Positions 13,786 through 14,540 of a DNA stretch of 46,270 nt are shown piece after piece. A program made the translations under genes and the position numbers. The notes under the pieces were generated by a model. It had not been told where the DNA came from and did no database searches. It was given only the letters and a program-made list of their open reading frames with translations. The stretch is from Candidatus Caenarcanales bacterium. GTDB lineage: Bacteria > Cyanobacteriota > Vampirovibrionia > 2-02-FULL-35-15. Every line of letters begins with the position of its first letter. The stretch's first letter is position 1. The DNA is taken from assembly GCA_020050435.1 (NCBI GenBank), contig JAGVKQ010000018.1:1-46270 (forward strand). The letters run 5' to 3'.

Positions 13786-13794
13786 TGATATAAT
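13786..13794 (+). promoter_or_regulatory. Extended -10 promoter for the speD leader
   Basis: TGATATAAT is a perfect TATAAT hexamer preceded by the TGn extension. No good -35 hexamer is seen 16-18 bp upstream, as expected for extended -10 promoters. A transcript from here would start near 13801 and carry a ~310-nt leader before speD. Confidence 0.55.
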
Positions 13795-13875
13795 CATATG
13801 CTTGTTGAAAAGAATTTTTCTAACAGAGAGTTAAATAAAATTTCCTCAAAGCCAAGAAAAATTTTCTAAATAAAA

Positions 13876-14070
13876 TTAGTAATTATGGAGTGAAGCTACA
13901 ATCAATTGAAAGGAGTGAAAACAGCATAATTACTAACACCTGAGGTGACTGCCCAAATCCGGCCAATAAAAAATTTGGTGATCAAAAGAAAATAAAAAAT
14001 AATTTGATTCAATTGGGCAAAAACGGTGGAGTGCAAAACAGATTTAAAAAACAAAATGCTAATAAATCTG
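13876..14070 (+). promoter_or_regulatory. Structured leader upstream of speD (candidate cis-regulatory RNA)
   Basis: Four inverted repeats lie in 195 nt. TTAGTAATTAT (13876-13886) pairs with ATAATTACTAA (13926-13936), 11 bp. TGCCCAA (13950-13956) pairs with TTGGGCA (14013-14019). CCAAAT (13953-13958) can instead pair with ATTTGG (13973-13978), which excludes the previous stem. CAGATTTA (14039-14046) pairs with TAAATCTG (14063-14070). The hexamer GGAGTG also recurs three times (13887, 13912, 14028). The layout suggests a regulatory RNA controlling SAM decarboxylase, but no known riboswitch consensus was matched. Confidence 0.45.
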
Positions 14071-14111
14071 AATTGTGCTAAAAGATAATCGATCGGCTGG
14101 AGGAAATAACT

Positions 14112-14540
14112 ATGTTTGGACCACACTTATTATTAGAAGCGTACGGTGCTACAAAACAGAAGCTCTCTGATATTGCTTTAATTAGCGATTTGCTTGACAA
14201 ATACCCTGAAAAACTAGCGATGCATAAGATTATGCCTCCTTATGTATTCAAATACGATAGCGGCACTATAAAGGAAGATTGGGGCATTAGTGGAATCGTC
14301 TTAATTGCTGAATCTCACATTGCTTTACACACGTTTCCTGAAAAAGGATTTTTTACATTAGATATTTTTTCATGTAAGGATTTTGACGTTAGGAGTGCAG
14401 TAGACATTGCTTTGGACATATTTGAACCAGCTAACTTCGAAGAAATGGTAGTTAACAGGGGCAGAGAATTTCCTAAGTCTATTGGACGCGCTGTAAAAAT
14501 CGTTAGCCAAGAACGTAAGAGAATGGCTGCTGTTAAGTAG
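14112..14540 (+). CDS. speD: S-adenosylmethionine decarboxylase proenzyme
   Basis: This enzyme makes decarboxylated SAM, the aminopropyl donor for spermidine. It is made as a proenzyme that cleaves itself to create a pyruvoyl cofactor. At 142 aa it is the short prokaryotic type. The self-cleavage serine is Ser68 in ESHIALHTFPEKGF, and the conserved His73 and Cys88 (DIFSC) follow. An ideal Shine-Dalgarno sequence, GGAGG at 14099-14103, lies 8 nt before the ATG, unlike most genes here. It is preceded by a long leader rich in inverted repeats and followed by two hairpins, so it appears monocistronic. No spermidine synthase is nearby. A SAM hydrolase gene lies 3.4 kb away on the other strand. Confidence 0.95.
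   Translation: MFGPHLLLEAYGATKQKLSDIALISDLLDKYPEKLAMHKIMPPYVFKYDSGTIKEDWGISGIVLIAESHIALHTFPEKGFFTLDIFSCKDFDVRSAVDIALDIFEPANFEEMVVNRGREFPKSIGRAVKIVSQERKRMAAVK

Follow-up and report, generated by a model that had tools for sequence, protein, structure and literature searches.

SAM-II, SAM-V and preQ1 riboswitches form H-type pseudoknots with a short first loop (L1), in which the Shine-Dalgarno (SD) sequence is the 3' strand, and they control translation. The spermidine riboswitch, a SAM-I variant, is found in leaders of genes for polyamine metabolism such as speD and speE (Salvail et al. 2023; PMC10853860), and its authors expect further polyamine classes (PMC10853860). Among the openly licensed papers searched, this SAM-I variant is the only riboswitch described for a bacterial speD leader. 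Here we analysed a 46,270-nt stretch of DNA (the window; contig C23 of the 2.49-Mb genome of an uncultured melainabacterium), for which a preliminary description had proposed a long structured leader, an uncharacterised riboswitch or attenuator, in front of a speD gene.

The speD leader is a real, conserved and uncatalogued structured RNA element, able to hide the ribosome-binding site, and it is probably a translation switch. It resembles the spermidine riboswitch as a leader RNA before a polyamine gene and in its presumed feedback logic; however, the spermidine riboswitch is a close variant of the SAM-I fold, whereas the window leader has an SD pseudoknot and no SAM-family match. With SAM-II, SAM-V and preQ1 it shares an H-type pseudoknot with the SD as 3' strand and a short L1, but it differs in its conserved sequence, in a long L2, in lacking an Rfam match and, in the window's family, in a 62-93-nt L3 region with its own hairpin. 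A second leader type before a SpeD-family gene, structurally unrelated to the SAM-I variant, makes the expectation of further classes testable in vitro.

The leader and the gene behind it

The speD homologue (14112-14540, plus strand) scores 80.1 bits against TIGR03330 in a profile search (cut-off 75.65) and matches PDB 2iii with E = 4.6e-12. Upstream of it lies pheT, divergently oriented. A base-by-base check placed the speD Shine-Dalgarno sequence GGAGG at 14099-14103 and the ATG at 14112, and it recovered all the sequence features of the preliminary description with small corrections. The features of the leader are as follows.

13786-13794 (+): extended -10 TGATATAAT, predicted transcription start at about 13800
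13841-13854 (+): second anti-SD stretch UUUCCUC..AGCC, window-specific and unconserved in relatives
13876-13936 (+): 12-bp stem TTAGTAATTATG/CATAATTACTAA, lineage-specific, with partial counterparts in few relatives (alignment by eye)
13909-13915 (+): SD-like AAAGGAG, present in 8/8 family leaders and not followed by a start codon at SD distance
13923-13947 (+): family-specific 5' part of the core, AGCATARTTACTRNCACC and the hairpin CACC/GGTG 13937-13940/13944-13947 (alignment)
13944-13962 (+): conserved core strand GGUGACU-RCCCAA-N-UCCGG, with only two variable positions in 11 genomes
13950-13956 (+): 5' strand of stem S1, UGCCCAA (unsupervised RNAalifold)
13958-13964 (+): 5' strand of stem S2, UCCGGCC, the anti-SD loop (7-mer pairing scan)
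13963-13978 (+): hairpin P3, CCAA/TTGG, inside the S1 loop, family-specific (RNAalifold)
13980-14009 (+): insertion of about 30 nt in the S1 loop, with hairpin GATCAAA/TTTGATT, unique to the window genome
14013-14019 (+): 3' strand of S1, UUGGGCA (sequence and covariation)
14031-14078 (+): hairpin P4 in the spacer from S1 to the SD region, its pairing seen in the six leaders counted
14095-14101 (+): 3' strand of S2, GGCUGGA, overlapping the GGAGG of 14099-14103 (pairing scan and covariation)
14112-14540 (+): speD homologue, class 1b AdoMet decarboxylase family, HTFPEKGFF..FSC subfamily, the controlled gene

The 5' UTR of about 310 nt had been deduced from the extended -10. This -10 is TATAATC preceded by TG, and a CTTGTT-like sequence follows; eight genomes of the family keep both, at a distance of 257-312 nt from the ATG (about 312 nt in the window), and this conservation supports the long UTR. 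The promoter scan of the window did not list this -10, because it has no -35 hexamer.

The leader (13800-14130) folds at -72.6 kcal/mol, and its dinucleotide shuffles at -51.7 +/- 4.2 (z = -4.93); none of 100 shuffles was as stable, and therefore the folding exceeds chance. The terminator scan of the window found no terminator-like site on this strand within the leader, so translation control is favoured and the attenuator half of the original proposal is not supported. That the leader is a transcription attenuator, or a chance structure in an A+T-rich region, is thus hardly credible: attenuation had been raised beforehand and the region is indeed A+T rich, but the missing terminator, the z value and the deep conservation described below all speak against it.

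An Rfam search, proposed in the preliminary description, returned no family for the leader. The window, 20 related loci and two further leaders were searched against Rfam 15 at gathering and permissive thresholds, and no family was recovered; at E <= 10 the window gave only unrelated matches and no SAM family. Identity with SAM-I or the spermidine riboswitch was rejected for want of a SAM-I covariance-model match, and membership in the SAM-II, SAM-V, SMK and preQ1 families on the same ground.

Distribution and conservation of the element

The core of the element reads GGUGACUGCCCAANUCCGGCC...UGGGC (13944-14019). A speD orthologue is present in nine of the 11 genomes of the window's family (f1), and eight of these nine carry the core, one copy each, directly upstream of the gene. 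Across the eight, the core is 97% identical as measured on 24 nt, the speD coding DNA 77% and its third codon positions 53%. Model R1 also matches three genomes of a second family, f6 (E = 3.6e-6, 5.6e-6 and 1.4e-3); there too the element immediately precedes the related speD gene, and it takes up only 65-73 nt from core to ATG. This short version of about 70 nt, together with the clear pseudoknot on the ribosome-binding site of the leader type, would help testing in vitro. Altogether the element occurs in 11 genomes of two families of the class, always single and always directly before this speD homologue; the gene is found without the element in G004 and in one second-family genome (G030). 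As in riboswitches generally, a conserved structured 5' UTR element is tied here to a metabolic gene. None of the f6 cases examined has pheT as its upstream neighbour; the RNA therefore goes with speD.

A pattern scan of 84,980 genomes matched only these speD leaders and six sites in coding DNA, a number no higher than that estimated for chance. The six, in Streptococcus, Robiginitomaculum, Paraburkholderia, Acidobacteria, Planctomycetota and Lentisphaerae, were dismissed as chance, as were weak R1 matches in family f5 (E 0.02-0.09), which lie away from speD and mostly in coding sequence. A search of 386 genomes of the phylum gave no match beyond the family, and the element was absent from the viral contigs searched. 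The long structured leader of the preliminary description is thus both uncatalogued and confined strictly to speD. The closest relatives that bear it are MAGs of Candidatus Melainabacteria, and groundwater is the source of at least one.

Control through an upstream ORF is very improbable. The strongest candidate begins with the GTG within GGUGACUGCCCAAUUCCGG (V-T-A-Q-F-R-P), and an ORF from that GTG is listed in seven of eight family leaders, with the SD-like AAAGGAG upstream in all eight. However, that site is about 30 nt off, which is too far; ORF lengths and stops differ between genomes; and the shared codons vary at first positions (GCC/ACC, TTC/ATC/GTC) with zero synonymous changes in 11 genomes. 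A second candidate, MKGVK, is not common to the leaders. Leader-peptide control was also rejected, as no short ORF was found to be conserved with a start site and a bias towards synonymous change. All eight family leaders have an SD-like AGGAG some 30 nt ahead of GGUGAC, and the leaders of another family, f2, have a similarly placed GGAGG; might this be a ribosome standby site?

A predicted pseudoknot on the Shine-Dalgarno sequence

The 7-bp stem TGCCCAA/TTGGGCA (13950-13956/14013-14019) of the preliminary description is conserved, with pair-preserving changes in relatives, and is S1 in our nomenclature. What that description missed is a pseudoknot between the loop and the SD, a key part of the element: the loop UCCGGCC is complementary to the SD region GGCUGGA and, together with S1, forms an H-type pseudoknot. 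To rank SD partners, every 7-mer of each leader was scanned against its own SD region (170-267 candidates per leader). The S2 loop ranks first in nine of 11 genomes, third in L042 and tied second in L002. In the family, it is top among 214-267 leader 7-mers in seven of eight genomes; its pairing energy in the window is -12.4 kcal/mol.

Loop and SD have changed jointly in f6 (UCCGGG with UUCGGA; UCCGGGA with UCUUGGG), and the two families differ at the S1 pair 13951-14018, with G-C in one and A-U in the other. Over the 11 sequences, the 13 pseudoknot pairs are formed in 90.6% of cells and three pairs have changed on both sides. Seven cells are double-changed, against a shuffle mean of 2.0 +/- 1.0 (0/500 shuffles as high), where the 11 sequences represent two lineages, hence few independent double-change events, and the S2 blocks were picked by eye. 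The pairing score collapses when the partners are slid. The order S1a-L1-S2a-L2-S1b-L3-S2b(SD), read from complementarity and covariation only, is found in 10 of the 11 sequences, and L1 coincides exactly with the variable base that separates CCCAA from UCCGG; a 1-nt L1 across an S2 of 6-7 bp is sterically normal for H-type pseudoknots. At the level of sequence, the pseudoknot on the SD is therefore well supported, and the suggestion that the SD is sequestered, made before the pseudoknot was noticed, gains support as the likely output, the loop being complementary to the SD with compensatory changes. S2 would hide or free the ribosome-binding site, as expected of an expression platform. The exception is L002 (genome G007), in which the loop is kept and the complementary SD is lost, leaving 4 bp.

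The remaining parts of the leader are conserved to different degrees. The 8-bp hairpin reported at 14039-14046/14063-14070 is present, is extended by five outer pairs (14031-14035/14074-14078) and constitutes P4; two of its positions show a G-C/A-U exchange among the six leaders counted without loss of pairing, and it would bring the SD close to the S2 loop. In the covariation check on related speD leaders, S1 and this hairpin held up, while the stem given as 11 bp (13876-13886/13926-13936) did not: it exists, and is really 12 bp long (13876-13887/13925-13936), but it is not conserved and is not supported as a core element. Likewise, the three GGAGTG repeats are there (13887, 13912 and 14028) but are not conserved as such. 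The hairpin CCAAAT/ATTTGG (13953-13958/13973-13978), described as competing with S1, was found by the sequence check.

RNAalifold without guidance finds CACC/GGUG, S1 and P3. The CACC/GGUG hairpin is family-specific, its CACC partner missing in the second family, and P3 shares two bases, CC 13963-13964, with S2. In the minimum-energy fold of the window, computed by a method in which pseudoknots are impossible, the SD pairs with 13841-13854 instead. A long-range stem UUACUA/UAGUAA (P1) recurs in place in several family leaders; it is not claimed, given single-genome p values of 0.04-0.6 and one genome without it.

Conservation, the association with the gene and the pairing of S1, S2 and P4 were computed, and the following mechanism is proposed on their basis. 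S1 would present the loop UCCGGCC, whose pairing with GGCUGGA would close the pseudoknot, block ribosome binding and keep SpeD low; on opening, speD would be translated. Sensing would likely fall to a core made up of the invariant unpaired GGUGACU, the one-base L1 and the UAAA tail that leads into the S1 3' strand. By analogy with SAM-II and preQ1 riboswitches, a polyamine-pathway metabolite probably acts by stabilising the pseudoknot, with feedback repression of the gene as the result. In our judgement, the leader is thus best explained, with fair though not high confidence, as a 5' UTR cis-regulatory RNA of speD that controls translation initiation through the SD pseudoknot, which a metabolite of the polyamine pathway probably closes. 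We conclude that the leader represents a new riboswitch-like family that acts on translation, with candidate ligands only; its reading as a riboswitch proper is plausible, and the proposal of the preliminary description taken as a whole is partly supported.

A constitutive structural leader, whose pseudoknot sets a low level of translation or protects the mRNA without switching, is a rather improbable alternative. We infer switching, its direction and the ligand, and a conserved alternative partner for the anti-SD loop is not established, which leaves room for such a leader; however, the unpaired GGUGACU and UAAA are conserved far beyond the needs of pairing.

The SpeD subfamily, candidate ligands and related leaders

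The window SpeD belongs to an MFGPHL...HTF(P/A)EK..FSCK subfamily, distinct from the canonical HTWPE..YTCG type. It has ESH and the catalytic H and C, and its HTFPE keeps a proline, which we take to be the diagnostic proline described in PMC10407285. A same-class genome (L104) has a tandem speD pair, and the second, non-canonical gene of that pair falls into this subfamily too. Vampirovibrio chlorellavorus has two clustered speD homologues, of which SpeD1 can restore the synthesis of spermidine and SpeD2 acts as an L-arginine decarboxylase (PMC10407285), and we infer that the window subfamily corresponds to SpeD2.

The only other SpeD homologue of the f1 genomes has neither the pyruvoyl serine nor the catalytic cysteine, and a Spermine_synth-family gene (PF01564) is found in 11/11 f1 genomes (in G002 by a weaker match only); because of this, the window gene is probably the working AdoMet decarboxylase in f1. 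An OKR-type decarboxylase scores above the cut-off in 10 of the 11, and in G000 it lies about 3 kb from the Spermine_synth-family gene. In f6, which also has a canonical SpeD, the gene may be an arginine decarboxylase. A paralogue without the pyruvoyl serine and the catalytic cysteine, HTWPE being kept, occurs in both f1 and f4 (G000:C17:22777-23094 = L103:2275-2733; L113-L121, L127-L130, L132). It resembles the trypanosome prozyme, a dead AdoMetDC paralogue that activates the enzyme (PMC5201418).

The conserved, apparently dead paralogue of f1 bears on a further reading, in which a protein (SpeD itself, the dead paralogue, or a ribosomal or RNA-binding regulator) binds the leader and represses translation with no small ligand. 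The strict association with one gene and the restriction to a lineage would also fit such autoregulation. We regard it as unlikely, yet the strongest of the alternatives: a long invariant stretch interleaved with an SD pseudoknot is more like metabolite aptamers than typical protein sites, and the second-family genomes keep the RNA though their other SpeD paralogue looks active.

If a metabolite is sensed, as we prefer to think, a polyamine-pathway product is more plausible than SAM, an argument drawn only from the gene's subfamily: SAM is not favoured because this subfamily appears to include an arginine decarboxylase, and if one RNA controls both enzyme types, a shared product such as spermidine or putrescine fits better. 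We advance only tentatively, at somewhat less than an even chance, the more specific idea that the leader represents a new class of riboswitch, not related to SAM-I, which uses an SD-sequestering pseudoknot to sense spermidine, putrescine or agmatine, controls a SpeD-family decarboxylase and is one branch of a wider set of homologous leaders including the element of f2.

The f2 element (model R2), GGAGG...ACAACGCCCAACUYCCAG-loop-CUGG...UAAGCGUUUCGUGUACCCC and then AGGGGGAAGAAACAUG, was found in 45 genomes of 21 genera, all of f2, one copy each (loci L010, L012, L013, L015, L017, L018, L020, L021 and L133-L162). In 30/30 loci checked, the orthologous gene, which begins with ATGTTYGGNCC, follows 42-120 nt downstream; the f2 loci scanned had no Rfam match. 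Like the window element, it precedes the orthologous gene and places a complementary stretch opposite the SD, its ACCCC facing a GGGGG Shine-Dalgarno; unlike it, it has its own stem AACGC/GCGUU and its own topology, and models R1 and R2 do not cross-match. In the f2 genome L011, the f2 stem is joined to GACUACCCAA, which matches ten f6 core bases exactly; this joint leader hints at common descent of the f2 and f6 elements. In addition, leaders upstream of speD in f4 (L022-L025) share a GGUUAGC-containing block about 20 nt before the Shine-Dalgarno sequence, possibly a third leader type.
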